From Mariniplasma anaerobium (lineage in GTDB: Bacteria > Bacillota_I > Bacilli_A > Acholeplasmatales > Acholeplasmataceae), in contig NZ_AP024412.1 of the NCBI RefSeq assembly GCF_016865445.1, positions 1,612,001 through 1,676,000 on the forward strand: DNA of 64,000 nucleotides. The letters are read 5' to 3'. The notes beneath the pieces were generated by a model that saw only the letters and a program-made list of their open reading frames with translations, was not told the origin of the DNA and ran no database searches. Positions within the stretch are counted from its first letter, which is position 1. Every line of letters starts with the position of its first letter. A program made the position numbers and the translations under genes. Positions 30,588 to 37,800 of this stretch are shown here, piece by piece.

Positions 30588-30900
30588 GACTTTCCTCCAA
30601 AAACATTTTTGTGGTTTCAACAAACATGATCCATTCTTCTTTTAGCATATCAAATCTTTTATGCCCTAATGTTGTTAATTGATAATACTTTCTAGCAGGT
30701 CCAGAACTTTCTTCTGATAAGTAACTTGTTACTAAACCTTCTTTATTCATTTTTCTTAAAATTGGATAAACTGTACCCGGTGAAATAGAAATACTTTTAC
30801 TTATATGATCTGAAATATCATATCCATATTGATCCCTTATGTTTAACATAGAAAGCACAAAGAGTTCTAATACACCTTTTTTAAATTGAATATTCATCAA
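30580..30900 (-). CDS. PadR family transcriptional regulator (second copy)
   Basis: 106 residues with the winged-helix signature GVLELFVLSMLNIRDQYGYD and GTVYPILRKMNKEG, wing GPARKYYQLT. It overlaps a membrane-protein gene upstream by 20 bp and the DUF1700 gene downstream by 8 bp, so all three are one translationally coupled operon. Probably controls the promoter at 31619-31647. Confidence 0.92.
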   Translation of the reverse strand: MMNIQFKKGVLELFVLSMLNIRDQYGYDISDHISKSISISPGTVYPILRKMNKEGLVTSYLSEESSGPARKYYQLTTLGHKRFDMLKEEWIMFVETTKMFLEESHE

Positions 30901-31585
30901 ATGCCTCCTGATTACGTTTGTGATGTTTGAAAATTTTATAAAAAATAGAAAGTGTTAATCTATAAATCATAAATATACTGAAATAATATATAAAGTAGGC
31001 AAATCCATCAGTTGCTTGACTTGGCATAAGATATGCCAATATATCAGCCTTTAATAATATTTGAATGAATAGAAAAGAATTATCTAGATTTACAAAACTA
31101 TTTACGATAATCACGTAGATTAAATAGATAACTGTATAGATTAAAATATATTTGATATGTTCTTTTTTAATCTCAAAGAAACTCTTTAATAATATACTTC
31201 CAAAAAATAATATGAAATGACTTGTAAATGATACTATAGTTGTATATAGTCCATTAACCAATACATATTGTTCGCCAATAAAGATAAATGCAATTAAATA
31301 TCCAATTCCTGAGATAAAACTAGCAAATGCAGCAACAGGATAAAATGTTTTTATATGAAATAAAATAGTAATTCCAAAGAGAAAATACGATAATGTTGAA
31401 AACTCAATAGGTATTTTACCAATCTCAAGATTCAATCCATAAATGGTATATTCTGTAATTTTATATATTAAAAGCAAGAAAGCAATACTTAATAACAGCA
31501 TTCTTTTTTTCTTCTTTTGTACCCTACTCATGAGTATGGCTGAGAGAATCGCATTCAAAGCTATTATAATTACCCAAAGATTCAT
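30881..31585 (-). CDS. Multi-pass membrane protein, first gene of PadR operon 2
   Basis: 234 residues with about seven membrane helices and very short loops. It is a clear paralogue of the gene ending at 31722: both share LE--KIPIEFSTL-YFLFG, YPVAAFASFISGIGYL and Y-LIY-----YLIYV. The overall pattern resembles the YwaF-like protein at 17655. The start follows TAGGAGATAAAAG. It is co-transcribed with PadR and DUF1700, so its level is probably set by PadR. Function unknown. Confidence 0.75.
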   Translation of the reverse strand: MNLWVIIIALNAILSAILMSRVQKKKKRMLLLSIAFLLLIYKITEYTIYGLNLEIGKIPIEFSTLSYFLFGITILFHIKTFYPVAAFASFISGIGYLIAFIFIGEQYVLVNGLYTTIVSFTSHFILFFGSILLKSFFEIKKEHIKYILIYTVIYLIYVIIVNSFVNLDNSFLFIQILLKADILAYLMPSQATDGFAYFIYYFSIFMIYRLTLSIFYKIFKHHKRNQEAFDEYSI

Positions 31586-31721: not shown

Positions 31722-32411
31722 TTAATGCATAATCTTCTTAGAATGATCGCGTTCGTAAATCTTGAAAAATATGAAAATTACAAGCAAGTAAATACCAACA
31801 ATAATGATGTAATACAACCAATAGATATAATTTGCAATATCTGTGGTAGATAACATATTTTCAAGTATTTCTGCTTTAAGTAGTAAATTGATAAATAAAT
31901 AAGATTGGCTATAATCTATAATAATATTCATAATACCTACATAAATTAAATAGAATACTGTATAAATAATGATGTATTTTATATCTTTGGTTTTAGCAAT
32001 TGCAATATTTTTTAATAACACACTACCCAAAAGTAATATAAAATGACTGCTTAATGCTATCAGTGTTGAATAAAAACCATGAATAACAACATATTGATCA
32101 CCCATAAATATAAACACTAATAAATATCCTATCCCTGAGATAAAGCTAGCAAAAGCAGCAACAGGATAAAGTTCTTTTATTTTAAATAAAACTACTACAC
32201 CAAATAAAAAATATGCTAGTGTAGAAAATTCTATAGGTATTTTATCTACTTCAAGATTTATAATGTAATAACTATATTCAGCTATTTTATAGACTAATAG
32301 TATCATTGCAATACTAGGTAGTAGCTTTCTTTTAAACTTTGTACTCGTTCTACTGATAAAAAAAGCTATGACTAGTAAGATGATGACTGTTAGCAAATTA
32401 TATATATTCAT
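31722..32411 (-). CDS. Multi-pass membrane protein, separated from its promoter and Shine-Dalgarno by IS110
   Basis: 229 residues with about seven membrane helices, paralogous to the gene at 30881-31585 (shared KIPIEFSTLAYFLFG, YPVAAFASFISGIGYL). The reading frame is intact and ends at its own strong terminator. The IS110 element begins immediately upstream of ATG 32411, however. The sequence beyond the far end of the element (33931-33991) supplies the missing TATAGGAG and a consensus promoter. What now precedes the ATG has no good Shine-Dalgarno, so translation is probably low or lost. Function unknown. Confidence 0.75.
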   Translation of the reverse strand: MNIYNLLTVIILLVIAFFISRTSTKFKRKLLPSIAMILLVYKIAEYSYYIINLEVDKIPIEFSTLAYFLFGVVVLFKIKELYPVAAFASFISGIGYLLVFIFMGDQYVVIHGFYSTLIALSSHFILLLGSVLLKNIAIAKTKDIKYIIIYTVFYLIYVGIMNIIIDYSQSYLFINLLLKAEILENMLSTTDIANYIYWLYYIIIVGIYLLVIFIFFKIYERDHSKKIMH

Positions 32412-32421
32412 AACTATCTTG

Positions 32422-32623
32422 TATATTCAGTATGTAGCATTTGATAGATACTGAATATAGCTTCCTTTCTTTCATTTGTTATAATTCTAATAGGTACTGT
32501 GGATTTGTTTTTCATAAATAGCGCTTGACGCATATAGGAGATTTCTACCACAGTTCCTGTTTTTTACTATCAATAAGTTTATTAGCGCTTGACGCTTGAT
32601 CACAAGAATATAGGAAACAGGAA
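32422..32623 (+). ncRNA. Predicted IS110 bridge RNA (5' hairpin, target loop, donor loop)
   Basis: Three stems in order: 12 bp (32422-32433 with 32448-32459), 7 bp (32496-32502 with 32548-32554) and 9 bp (32554-32562 with 32615-32623). The last two enclose loops that each contain TAGCGCTTGACGC (32519-32531 and 32583-32595), a small GCG/CGC hairpin. This is the known bridge-RNA plan: 5' stem-loop, target-binding loop, donor-binding loop, upstream of the recombinase. The first loop carries TTCATA (as in the left flank) and TATAGGAGAT, complementary to the right flank. An extended -10, TGTTATAAT, is at 32477-32485. Confidence 0.7.
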
Positions 32624-32670
32624 ACTCGTGACTAACCATCAGTACCCAAAAACTTTTAGGAGGTGGAGAT

Positions 32671-33837
32671 ATGTACCATGTCGGCATCGATATCTCTAAA
32701 TTCAAACACAACTGCTTCATAGCTACGGATGCAGGAGTGAAGGTCAAAGAATTCATCTTTGACAACAACAAGTCAGGTTTCATAGAACTCAAAGATTCAC
32801 TAAACTGTTTAGGCAAACCTAGTCAAATAAAAATAGGTTTCGAATCAACGGGTCACTATGGCATAAACTTGAAATCTTACCTGTCCAACCTAGGTTATAC
32901 CTATGTGGAACTCAACGCTTACTTAACGCACATGTTTTCCAAGGCATTATCGTTAAGAAAGACAAAGACTGATAAGGTTGACGCTAAAGTCATTTCGAGT
33001 ATGTTAGGATCTGTTGATTACGAAACACTACATACTAAATTTTACCACATGAATGACTTAAAGGAATTAGTTAGGCAGAGAAATGTTTACTTAAATAGTC
33101 GTTCTAAAGAACTAATCAAGCTAACAAATCTCTTAGATAAGACATTTCCTGAGTTTAAACCTTTTTTTAAGAACCGTTTAGGTGTCAGTGCTTTATTCAT
33201 TCTAAAACGCTTTAAAACAAAGGCTCGCATCTCTAAACTAAGCTCATCTGACTATGAATTAATTAGATCAAAGACCAAAGGTAGAATAACTTATCCTAAA
33301 TTCAATGGTTTGAAACAAATTGCCAAAGATTCAATTGGAATCTCATCTAAAGTCTATGATTTGCTCATTCAAACTTCCATTCATCAGTATGAATATTTAA
33401 CTCAAATACTTAAATTATTGGATGATGAAATCATAGCACTTTTCAAGAAAACAAATTCTAAGTTACTCACCATTCCTGGATTAGGTATCATCACAGCAGC
33501 AACCATTTACGCTGAAGTTGGTGATTTCAAAAACTTTTCTAATCCTGCAAAGCTCGTCGCATTTGCTGGATTTGATGTGAGAATCGTTCAATCAGGGACT
33601 CAAGAGCATTATGGCAAGCTCGTTAAACACGGGTCTTCTCTACTTAGAAATGCTATATGGACTTATGCACTGCCCGCTGTAAGATTCATCCCTACAGTTA
33701 ATGATTATTATCATAAAAAGAAGTCTCAGGGTAAACACCATAAAGTCATTTTATCTCACATCTGTCGTAAACTGATTCGCATGATTTACTATATTGAATA
33801 TCATAACGTTTCATTTGATCACAGCATGAGTCGTTAG
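32671..33837 (+). CDS. IS110-family DEDD recombinase (transposase)
   Basis: 388 residues, complete. The N-terminal RuvC-like domain starts YHVGIDISKFKHNCF, with later acidic residues in FESTGHYG (about 65-72) and TDKVDAKVI (about 107-115). The C-terminal transposase_20 domain has LLTIPGLGIITAATIYAEVGDF and KLVAFAGFD, with the catalytic-serine region KHGSSLLRNAIWTYA. A strong Shine-Dalgarno (TAGGAGGTGGAG) precedes the ATG. Intact, so probably active. The leader upstream encodes the predicted bridge RNA, as in the IS110 (not IS1111) subgroup. Confidence 0.95.
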   Translation: MYHVGIDISKFKHNCFIATDAGVKVKEFIFDNNKSGFIELKDSLNCLGKPSQIKIGFESTGHYGINLKSYLSNLGYTYVELNAYLTHMFSKALSLRKTKTDKVDAKVISSMLGSVDYETLHTKFYHMNDLKELVRQRNVYLNSRSKELIKLTNLLDKTFPEFKPFFKNRLGVSALFILKRFKTKARISKLSSSDYELIRSKTKGRITYPKFNGLKQIAKDSIGISSKVYDLLIQTSIHQYEYLTQILKLLDDEIIALFKKTNSKLLTIPGLGIITAATIYAEVGDFKNFSNPAKLVAFAGFDVRIVQSGTQEHYGKLVKHGSSLLRNAIWTYALPAVRFIPTVNDYYHKKKSQGKHHKVILSHICRKLIRMIYYIEYHNVSFDHSMSR

Positions 33838-33930
33838 GGTGTAGCTACCTAAATTGACTCACATATCGTCAATTTTGACCTGTAACTAGGTCTTTTTCTG
33901 TTTATTCATTATTTTCACTTGACTTTGTAT

Positions 33931-33991
33931 AGTTTATCTCCTATAAATTGTAGAATGTCAATATTATATACGACAAATAGACACCTGTCAA
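33931..33991 (-). promoter_or_regulatory. Orphaned promoter and Shine-Dalgarno of the gene at 31722-32411
   Basis: On the minus strand TTGACA (33991-33986), 17 nt, TATAAT (33968-33963), then TATAGGAGATAAA (33945-33933) running into the IS110 right end. Both promoter hexamers and the spacing are perfect. The Shine-Dalgarno stretch matches TATAGGAGATAAAAG before the paralogous gene at 31585. Transcription from here now enters the element antisense to the recombinase. Confidence 0.75.
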
Positions 33992-34052: not shown

Positions 34053-34652
34053 TTAAATATTTCTAATTGCTTTCATGCTCATTTCAAACACTTCGTCTTC
34101 TGATTTGTTTGATGTGTTAAGTATGACATATGGAATATCATATACAGCACATTGAGCTGCAATCTTTGTTACATAATCTTTTAATAAAGATCTAAAATAT
34201 GATTCATTCTTATCAAAGTTTTCAATTTCTTGATCTCTACCTCTTGATAATACTCTATCTTTAAAGTTTTCCCAATCTACATCTAATATGATATAAATAT
34301 CAGGTTTTTTAATTTGATTCATATATGCATGAAAGACACCATTATACATGTTCATGATTGTTGGCATTCTTTTTAGATTATGTTGAGCAAATAACCAATG
34401 CTCAACTAAATCTCTATCAACAATGAAGTTTCCTTCATATTTTTGTTGATTGAGCCAATGATTGTGAATAAAATATATTTGTAACAACATTTCAACGTCT
34501 GTTTTTTGCTCATATAGCCACTTAAGCAATGTATTGAATACTTCATCGTCTTTCTCAAACTCTTCCATTACAGGCAGGTCTAGTGCCTCTCCTAGTCGAT
34601 TAACTAATGTTGATTTGCCTGAAGCAATCATTCCACCTATTGATATTTTCAT
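34053..34652 (-). CDS. Deoxynucleoside kinase
   Basis: 199 residues from ATG 34652 (AGAGGA upstream). The P-loop GGMIASGKST is at the N-terminus, DRDLVEHWLFA carries the DRS-like catalytic arginine region, and RGRDQEIENFD is the lid/LID-arginine segment, followed by YVILNTSN. This is the dNK/dGK-dAK family that phosphorylates deoxynucleosides for dNTP salvage, typical of Mollicutes and lactobacilli, which often have several copies. Base specificity cannot be read with confidence. Confidence 0.9.
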   Translation of the reverse strand: MKISIGGMIASGKSTLVNRLGEALDLPVMEEFEKDDEVFNTLLKWLYEQKTDVEMLLQIYFIHNHWLNQQKYEGNFIVDRDLVEHWLFAQHNLKRMPTIMNMYNGVFHAYMNQIKKPDIYIILDVDWENFKDRVLSRGRDQEIENFDKNESYFRSLLKDYVTKIAAQCAVYDIPYVILNTSNKSEDEVFEMSMKAIRNI

Positions 34653-34764
34653 CTTTTGTGTCCTCTTCATTTCTAACATTAAAAATTAATGTTTGCCTAT
34701 GAAAATGATATCATCTCTGATGAGTTATTGTCAATCGTTATTTTTTACTTTAATAAAATTATGA

Positions 34765-36290: not shown

Positions 36291-36364
36291 TTGATTCATT
36301 TCATATCAAAAACTCATTGCATAATGACAAAAAATACTTTATAATTAAATTAACTTAATAAGAA

Positions 36365-36545
36365 TAGTTGGTGTATTTTAAATACATAACAGGGAATCAA
36401 GTTAAAAGCTTGAGCTGTCCCAGCAACCGTAATACTGACGAAATGCAAATAACCACTGCTTATGGCGGGAAGGTGCATAGTAGGATGAAGTTTAGCCGGT
36501 AGACCTACCAATATATTCGAACGAGTAACAGTCTTCTGGGATTAA
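36365..36545 (+). ncRNA. Cobalamin (AdoCbl) riboswitch
   Basis: Conserved cobalamin-aptamer elements appear in order: AACAGGGAA (about 36388-36396), GCTGTCCCAGCAACCGTAA (about 36414-36432), GGCGGGAAGGTGC, and the B12 box GCCGGTAGACCTACC (36495-36509), then GTAACAGTCTTCTGGGA closing the fold. A transcription terminator follows at 36574. It precedes the transcobalamin-like / ECF S-component cassette, so B12 should shut off its uptake genes. Confidence 0.92.
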
Positions 36546-36573
36546 AGAGTGTAGATAACTTTTTTTGTTATTT

Positions 36574-36601
36574 ACCATGTCCCACAGGACATGGTTTTTT
36601 T
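36574..36601 (+). terminator. Riboswitch expression-platform terminator
   Basis: ACCATGTCC (36574-36582) pairs with GGACATGGT (36587-36595), loop CACA, followed by U7. It lies between the B12 aptamer and the first coding gene, indicating transcriptional control. Confidence 0.88.
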
Positions 36602-36624
36602 ATAACAAAAAAAGGAGATTAAAC

Positions 36625-37800
36625 ATGAAAAAAACCTTATTATTACTGCTTTTTGTATTTACTTTTGTTACTCTTGCTGGGTGTCAAGAAAAAGATTCAT
36701 TTACACTAGAATTAACTGATTTTAATGGTGATGTGTTAGTTGATCAAACTATTTATTTTGAAGAAGATGATCAAAGAACAATTTTAGAATTGATTGAAGC
36801 TTCTGTTGATATTGATTATGATACATATGATTTTGGTGTGATGGTCAATGGAATCGAAGGATATTATCCAAGAGAATATGGTGCTAGTTATAATTACTAC
36901 TATCAAATTCAAGTTGATGGTGTGGCTAGTGAAGTTGGCATATCTGAGATTAATTATGTTGATCAGATGACTCTATCTTTTGTAGAGATATCTTCTCTAT
37001 TAGCTTTTGATCAAATGGTTGATGATTTCATTTATGGATTTATTAAAAATAACTTAGATAATTATTTATCAGATGCGTTTGTTGATTATATGGTTTTATC
37101 AAGTCTTAATCAACTTATTCAAAATAATTATATAGACCTTGATTTTAATGATTATTATTCTTATGATAATCTTGATTTAAAAAATGAAGTACTTGATGAT
37201 ATGACCATTGGTGAGTTATTAAAGGCTGGTCCTGTTTATAAAGTTGAAGGTATGAACTTAGATACTTATAAAACAAAGTTGTCTGAAACAGAAATTTCAA
37301 ATCCTTATGAAGCCACTTCTTATCTTGAAGCATTATATATCGCAGGTGAGATGGATAACGTAGTCGCAGCCGATTTAATGAATCAAGAAGTCAATGATCC
37401 AGATTATACAGGTATGGCTTTAATGGCAATTGCTCCATATAGTGACCTAGAAGGTTTTGATTCATATATAGATAGCTTAGGAACTTATTTACAAACAACA
37501 TTAACTGCAACAGGAGTTGAATCTTGGGGGAGTGCAAATTCAGCATCAACAGCAACAGCTATCCTGGGATTAGTCGCAAATGGCATTAATCCTCAAAGTG
37601 ATGCATATATGACTGATGGTGTTGGTTTAGTTGAAGCTTTGATGTTATATGTTGATGGATATAATTTTAAATGGCAACTAGCAAGCGAGGAAGCTGACCT
37701 AGCATTTTCTACACCTCAAGCGTTTGCAGCACTTGTTGCGTATAAATTGTCCCGTGATACTTGGGGATTTGGTAGTACAAATATATTTAATTTTAGTTAA
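36625..37800 (+). CDS. Transcobalamin-like lipoprotein: DUF4430 + alpha/alpha-toroid
   Basis: 391 residues from ATG 36625 (AAAGGAGATT upstream). Lipobox cysteine 20 (TLAGC). Residues about 24-115 are a DUF4430 domain (LTDFNGDVLVDQTIYFEEDDQ, NYYYQIQVDG), equivalent to the beta domain of intrinsic factor/transcobalamin. Residues about 130-390 are helical with terpenoid-cyclase-like repeats (ATAILGLVANGINPQSD, AFAALVAYKLSRD), matching the alpha domain of the same proteins but in swapped order. With the B12 riboswitch, a surface cobalamin-binding role is strongly suggested; not proven. Confidence 0.8.
   Translation: MKKTLLLLLFVFTFVTLAGCQEKDSFTLELTDFNGDVLVDQTIYFEEDDQRTILELIEASVDIDYDTYDFGVMVNGIEGYYPREYGASYNYYYQIQVDGVASEVGISEINYVDQMTLSFVEISSLLAFDQMVDDFIYGFIKNNLDNYLSDAFVDYMVLSSLNQLIQNNYIDLDFNDYYSYDNLDLKNEVLDDMTIGELLKAGPVYKVEGMNLDTYKTKLSETEISNPYEATSYLEALYIAGEMDNVVAADLMNQEVNDPDYTGMALMAIAPYSDLEGFDSYIDSLGTYLQTTLTATGVESWGSANSASTATAILGLVANGINPQSDAYMTDGVGLVEALMLYVDGYNFKWQLASEEADLAFSTPQAFAALVAYKLSRDTWGFGSTNIFNFS

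Follow-up and report, generated by a model that had tools for sequence, protein, structure and literature searches.

A probable bridge-RNA-guided IS110-group element aimed at ribosome-binding sites, with a putative replacement Shine-Dalgarno sequence in its left end

How does a mobile element come to lie exactly between a Shine-Dalgarno (SD) sequence and a start codon, and how might the gene behind it live with the insertion? These questions are raised by an intact IS110-group element in a 64,000-nucleotide stretch of Mariniplasma anaerobium, which has an Acholeplasma-like genome of 1.9 Mb. (We call the whole stretch, G000:C1:1612001-1676000, the window.) The element is the only full copy in this genome. 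We consider it very probable that it is guided by a bridge RNA and aimed at ribosome-binding sites, with a putative replacement SD in its left end. An initial annotation, made from the sequence alone, had proposed that the leader of the element folds as a bridge RNA whose guides match the actual insertion site. It missed that the insertion falls in a ribosome-binding site. It also missed that the stem it appears to have counted first is an opposite-strand structure of the element end, not part of the bridge RNA.

The element and its insertion site comprise the following features.

32418..33939, plus strand: IS110-group element, both CT cores counted in (ends common to copies in relatives; empty site in G003)
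32406..32417, plus strand: left target ATTCATAACTAT, which contains CAT, the start codon of the minus-strand gene
33938..33945, plus strand: core CT and right target CCTATA, which form the minus-strand SD AGGAG
31722..32411, minus strand: interrupted host gene, start codon retained
33963..33991, minus strand: likely promoter of the interrupted gene, TTGACA-17-TATAAT

The ends are placed by copies in relatives, which break off at identical places and give CT cores at 32418-32419 and 33938-33939. When the flanks are joined via a single CT, they align without a gap at the junction, over the whole 520 bases, to uninterrupted DNA of the sister species G003. The insertion point is fixed because this empty site exists, and the joined flanks show the short-core insertion without target duplication that is typical of the IS110 family. 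The predicted target of the element is ATTCATAACTATCTCCTATA. In the uninterrupted arrangement, the minus-strand gene starts with an ATG behind an SD (AGGAG-ATAGTT-ATG in the joined flanks and GGAGG-TTATG-ATG in G003). The non-coding left end (about 253 nucleotides, nt) is longer than the right end (about 102 nt) and holds the predicted bridge RNA, as in the IS110 group and not the IS1111 group. (The genome also holds a second IS110 element, L076 at G000:C1:1116700-1118800. It is a distant relative, about 59% identical, with a CA core, and it likewise lies between an SD and an ATG.)

The same type of junction recurs across many genomes, at dozens of unrelated target genes. We counted the 69 left junctions with enough flank, with the caveat that flanks come from metagenome-assembled genomes. 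At 60 of the 69, a start codon lies 5-8 nt from the core and opens a minus-strand frame of 80 codons or more, as compared to 7% at random same-strand points. The right flanks mostly read as an SD on the minus strand. The targets include class I tRNA synthetases (isoleucyl-like, and trpS of the tryptophanyl/tyrosyl class, both by inspection), CTP synthase, a formyltransferase (fmt by inspection), a uridine-kinase family protein, thiolase, and ribonucleotide reductase. The initial annotation had named a shared loop sequence at unrelated targets as a finding that would speak against it. Identical-loop copies, such as the seven sharing one guide in G004, do lie at different genes, yet all at one site type, with CTCCT as the right flank and CAT at most 12 bases left of the core. 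That the target class is the ribosome-binding site, with insertion between the SD and the start codon, is well supported by these sequence comparisons.

Two kinds of site look different. L189 and L190 (in G208 and G251) are inserted at the opposite side of the SD and have CTCC in both the left guide and the left flank. Also, the right flank of L064 (G002:C45), CTTGTATCTATATT, is without an SD and starts like the element's own left end.

The recombinase and the predicted RNA are laid out as follows.

32671..33837, plus strand: IS110 recombinase, 388 amino acids, with D7, E58, D101, D104, and S308
~32491..32647, plus strand: bridge RNA, predicted ends
32493..32496 with 32643..32646, plus strand: closing helix P1, GGTA/TACC, with compensatory changes at three of four pairs
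32497..32553, plus strand: target-binding loop (outer stem 32497-32502/32548-32553; inner stem 32521-32523/32529-32531)
32556..32621, plus strand: donor-binding loop (outer stem 32556-32562/32615-32621; inner stem 32584-32587/32593-32596)

The recombinase matches Pfam families PF01548 and PF02371 and, by sequence, the solved recombinases of IS621 (PDB 8wt6) and ISCro4 (9t56). Its five listed residues align to the catalytic residues of IS621, so that it has the DEDD RuvC-like set and the Tnp serine of the IS110 family. The RNA of the window alone folds at −38.5 kcal/mol (z −2.88 versus shuffles). Across 17 aligned related leaders, a model with five helices (the closing helix, and an outer and an inner stem for each of the target and donor loops) has 93% of cells paired, and both sides change together in 37 cells, as compared to 11.2 in shuffles (0/500). 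All shifted versions of the model score far lower. The compensatory changes are mostly in the inner target stem and in the closing helix, which occurs as GGTA/TACC, GGCA/TGCC, AGCA/TGCT, and TGTA/TACA. In correction of the initial annotation, the RNA spans about 32491-32647, and the first stem, 32422-32433/32448-32459, is a separate feature: we rejected this hairpin as the first stem of the bridge RNA because joining the ends in a circle would create a −10 box in its left arm. A covariance model of the bridge RNA has matches in 29 of 160 genomes from the order and, in a sample from the phylum, in 30 of 392. An Rfam search of the window found no matching bridge-RNA family; its sole match is a cobalamin riboswitch (RF00174, 88.5 bits) at 36351-36526 on the plus strand, upstream of a frame at 36565-37800.

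Five guide segments can be placed in the two loops, and all five fit the element ends and the target.

32508..32519, plus strand: left target guide TTTTTCATAAAT; the best register is the 12 nt adjoining the core
32533..32540, plus strand: right target guide TATAGGAG, the AG of which pairs with the CT core; 8/8 to the flank, with positions −1 to −5 covarying in relatives
32541..32542, plus strand: handshake guide AT, complementary to donor AT at 33936-33937
32575..32582, plus strand: left donor guide AAGTTTAT, the same as donor TAGTTTAT (33930-33937) at 7/8 positions
32600..32606, plus strand: right donor guide TCACAAG, of which ACAAG pairs with the core and right donor CTTGT at 32418-32422

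This is the arrangement of IS621, with two internal loops in which the left guides resemble the top strand and the right guides are complementary to it, for target and donor alike. The right target guide is itself an SD (AGGAG in the window), and in relatives it changes together with the site. Among 39 distinct guide-site pairs, the guide and the flank agree at 200 of 312 positions, versus 160.7 ± 5.0 when pairs are permuted only within the same core class (p ≤ 5e-5). The covariation is confined to the five positions that adjoin the core. (Automatic parsing misplaced the right guide in a few elements, such as L062, L143-L145, and L165, which can only blur the signal.) The donor side changes along with the element ends. 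The handshake guide is AT in group A and mostly AC in groups B and C, in agreement with the two bases that end the donor, AT and GT. The left donor guide and donor are AAGTTTAT and TAGTTTAT in the window but CAGTAAGT and TAGTAAGT, or TAGTTAGT and TAGTTAGT, in other groups. The right donor guide contains ACAAG where the core is CT and ACATG where it is CA. The left target guide contains CAT, the complement of ATG, in register. In the window this CAT lies two bases further along the guide than in the closest relatives, and the CAT of the flank is correspondingly nearer the core than in L053 and L065.

These results bear on the matches proposed initially. The sequences quoted there are all present, including TAGCGCTTGACGC in both loops, and TTCATA at 32511-32516 is indeed identical to the left flank at 32407-32412. 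TATAGGAGAT (32533-32542) is exactly complementary to ATCTCCTATA (33936-33945), but we rejected it as a single 10-nt guide: only CCTATA belongs to the target, next to the core CT, and the AT at 33936-33937 is a part of the element, which the handshake guide would pair with as donor. As the initial annotation suspected, part of the right match may be chance, namely the outer TATA. An additional CTA match beside the core found no support, and the pairing of ACAAGA in the second loop with TCTTGT (32417-32422) holds for ACAAG (32602-32606) with CTTGT (32418-32422). Given the fold, the helix covariation, and the right-guide covariation, the central claim, that the leader encodes a predicted bridge RNA whose loops fit the target and donor of the window insertion, is well supported.

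How the host gene copes with the insertion is a separate question. The SD of this gene and, in the window, also its likely promoter are stranded beyond the far side of the element. The left end has two features on the minus strand that may be relevant.

32422..32459, minus strand: left-end hairpin, arms 32422-32433 and 32448-32459 (z −3.54)
32461..32469, minus strand (antisense): SD-like GAAAGGAAG, immediately 5' of the hairpin

Read on the minus strand, GAAAGGAAG is followed by the hairpin, four bases, the element edge, six host bases, and the ATG. An SD-like sequence and hairpin in this order are kept in all 56 distinct left ends: 52 were scored by a script, and four that it missed, due to trimming to 60 nt, were read from the printed sequence, where AAGGAG or AAAGGG is visible at the trimmed edge. 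The fold is kept as well (mean z −2.2 over 37 left ends), and the arms show some compensatory change in groups A and B (8 cells versus 2.7; 0/500). The arm sequences fall into 14 clusters, as counted with an arm-swap test that was used solely for this count and is partly circular (the arms were picked by folding). The median distance from the SD-like sequence to the start codon is 50 nt along the DNA and 13 nt with the hairpin excluded. In the single case of L189, where the host SD was left with the gene, the SD borne by the element is degraded. Furthermore, trpS in G017 (98% complete) and pyrG in G084 (83% complete) each have one match per genome and a long open frame directly behind an insertion, so these genes are presumably still expressed. 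We therefore think it moderately probable that the left end carries a replacement SD and a hairpin that shortens its distance to the start codon, which would keep the target gene translated and the insertion tolerated.

Putting these observations together, we propose that the donor loop would pair with the joined ends of the excised element while the target loop would match a ribosome-binding site, with the right guide, itself an SD, pairing with the complementary strand and the CAT of the left guide on the start-codon side. Recombination at the CT core would place the element between the SD and the ATG, with the recombinase gene facing away from the host gene. The antisense SD in the left end would then replace the displaced one, and the hairpin would shorten its distance to the host ATG. 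The sequence itself shows the ends, the empty site, the guides with their register, and the covariation of the helices and the right guide; a circular intermediate, a junction promoter, and cutting and strand exchange at the core are inferred from IS621. The signals that may drive transcription are as follows.

33919..33924, plus strand: −35 TTGACT, which in the circle would lie 17 nt from a −10 TATATT (32422-32427)
32477..32485, plus strand: extended −10 TGTTATAAT, a possible bridge-RNA promoter in the integrated element, kept in group A and much of group B
33877..33897, plus strand: terminator-like hairpin 3' of the recombinase gene

We rejected the polypyrimidine TTCCTTTC as the −35 of the bridge-RNA promoter because of its variable spacing to TATAAT. 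The IS900 hed proposal, in which the host SD drives a gene of the element, was also rejected, as the right end has no suitably spaced start codon and there is no long opposite-strand frame.

Several points weigh against this account. Nine of the 69 junctions are without a long open frame, and the element copies are related, so that the insertions do not count as wholly independent events. Among the four target and donor guides, the left target guide is the weakest: in its best register, the 12 bases before the core, it has 192 of 372 matches, its covariation is weak (p 0.01-0.04), and neighboring registers show a similar excess. The excess over permuted pairs is small because CAT is common to nearly all guides and sites, and much of the left-guide match appears to be this shared motif. 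As to the left end, a median distance of 13 nt exceeds the optimum for an SD, and the host gene needs transcription too, either via the element or from another promoter.

The most serious alternative is that the element is aimed at ribosome-binding sites by its bridge RNA but that the hairpin and GAAAGGA serve transposition or RNA synthesis (as a site for the recombinase or a host factor, or in a longer transcript) and not translation. The hairpin might indeed have such a role: the bridge RNA of IS621 carries a 5' stem-loop (PMC11208160), and the hairpin overlaps the −10 box expected at the circle junction. However, transcription from the junction promoter would start downstream of the left arm, so that the hairpin could not fold in that RNA. 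Also, GAAAGGA is tightly spaced to the hairpin and not to the bridge-RNA promoter, and insertions lie directly upstream of the single-copy trpS and pyrG. We regard this alternative as possible but doubtful.

A second alternative is that the guides are coincidental: the recombinase or the accessibility of the chromosome would pick ribosome-binding sites, and the likeness of the loops would reflect AT-richness and common SD-like sequences. The weak coupling of the left guide to the flank would fit, as would the outer part of the right match, where positions −6 to −8 show no covariation. However, separate insertions combine rare right guides with the matching rare sites (GGAGTTG in L079 and L154, GGGGTG in L088 and L089, GAAGGTG in L146-L148, CGGAG in L153, and ATGAG in L059 and L060), and the association is strong within core classes, so coincidence seems very improbable. 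Finally, that insertions are not directed by guides but selected for their effect on the flanking gene would suit the single full copy in this genome but hardly the same junction at so many unrelated genes, and we give it the least credence of all.

Our preferred reading, a guided element aimed at ribosome-binding sites, can be compared with known systems. Like IS621 and other IS110-group elements (PMC11208160, PMC11208158; 8wt6) and ISCro4 (9t56), the element has a homologous recombinase with DEDD and serine residues and an RNA in a long left end. It also shares with the IS621 type the target and donor loops, the CT core, handshake guides, and a −35 in the right end with a −10 in the left end. 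In contrast to IS621, no 5' stem-loop is visible between the predicted RNA start and the target loop, given the predicted RNA ends; a closing helix joins both ends of the RNA instead. The ribosome-binding site as a target and the antisense SD-hairpin in the left end are further differences.

A preference of an IS110-family element for ribosome-binding sites is already known from IS900, a distant member of the family whose target CATGNNNNNNTCTCCTT lies between the SD and the start codon (PMC8141618, citing Doran 1997); the title of the 1997 paper names the targeting of translation initiation signals. The elements related to that of the window likewise use this gap in one orientation, as seen at 60 of the 69 left junctions. 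The published piece of IS900 (positions 6-29) reads GAAAGG on the opposite strand near the left end, but no hairpin before the edge is evident in that piece. IS900 also has the long opposite-strand hed frame, whereas the longest opposite-strand frame of the window element is 109 amino acids. A precedent for the proposed hairpin is found in genes 38 and 25 of phage T4, where a hairpin between the SD and the AUG reduces spacings of 22 and 27 nt to 5 and 11 nt, respectively (PMC3014915). Those are fixed phage genes, whereas here the SD and the hairpin would come from a mobile element and serve any host gene.

Two neighboring loci may be mentioned. The minus-strand genes at 30881-31585 and 31722-32411 are a tandem pair of similar-looking membrane-protein genes without a Pfam match, and the element precedes the second. 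On the other side, a deoxynucleoside kinase gene (34053-34679, minus strand) adjoins the element; in G036, the copy L090 directly precedes a similar-looking gene.

In the literature that we searched, we found no guide-RNA account of how an IS110-family element targets ribosome-binding sites. The predicted guides offer such an account of a preference that has been known since IS900 was studied, and they would be natural guides aimed at a short degenerate motif that is found before most bacterial genes. We lean slightly towards a broader view, in which a widespread branch of IS110 has guides set to the translation starts of essentially any gene and carries a portable antisense SD-hairpin that would restore translation. 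A left end that does supply a new ribosome-binding site would explain how the element can live before essential genes, and it would be a model from nature for insertion with little harm. Such an element would be guided by RNA to a universal site and would mend the damage of its own insertion.
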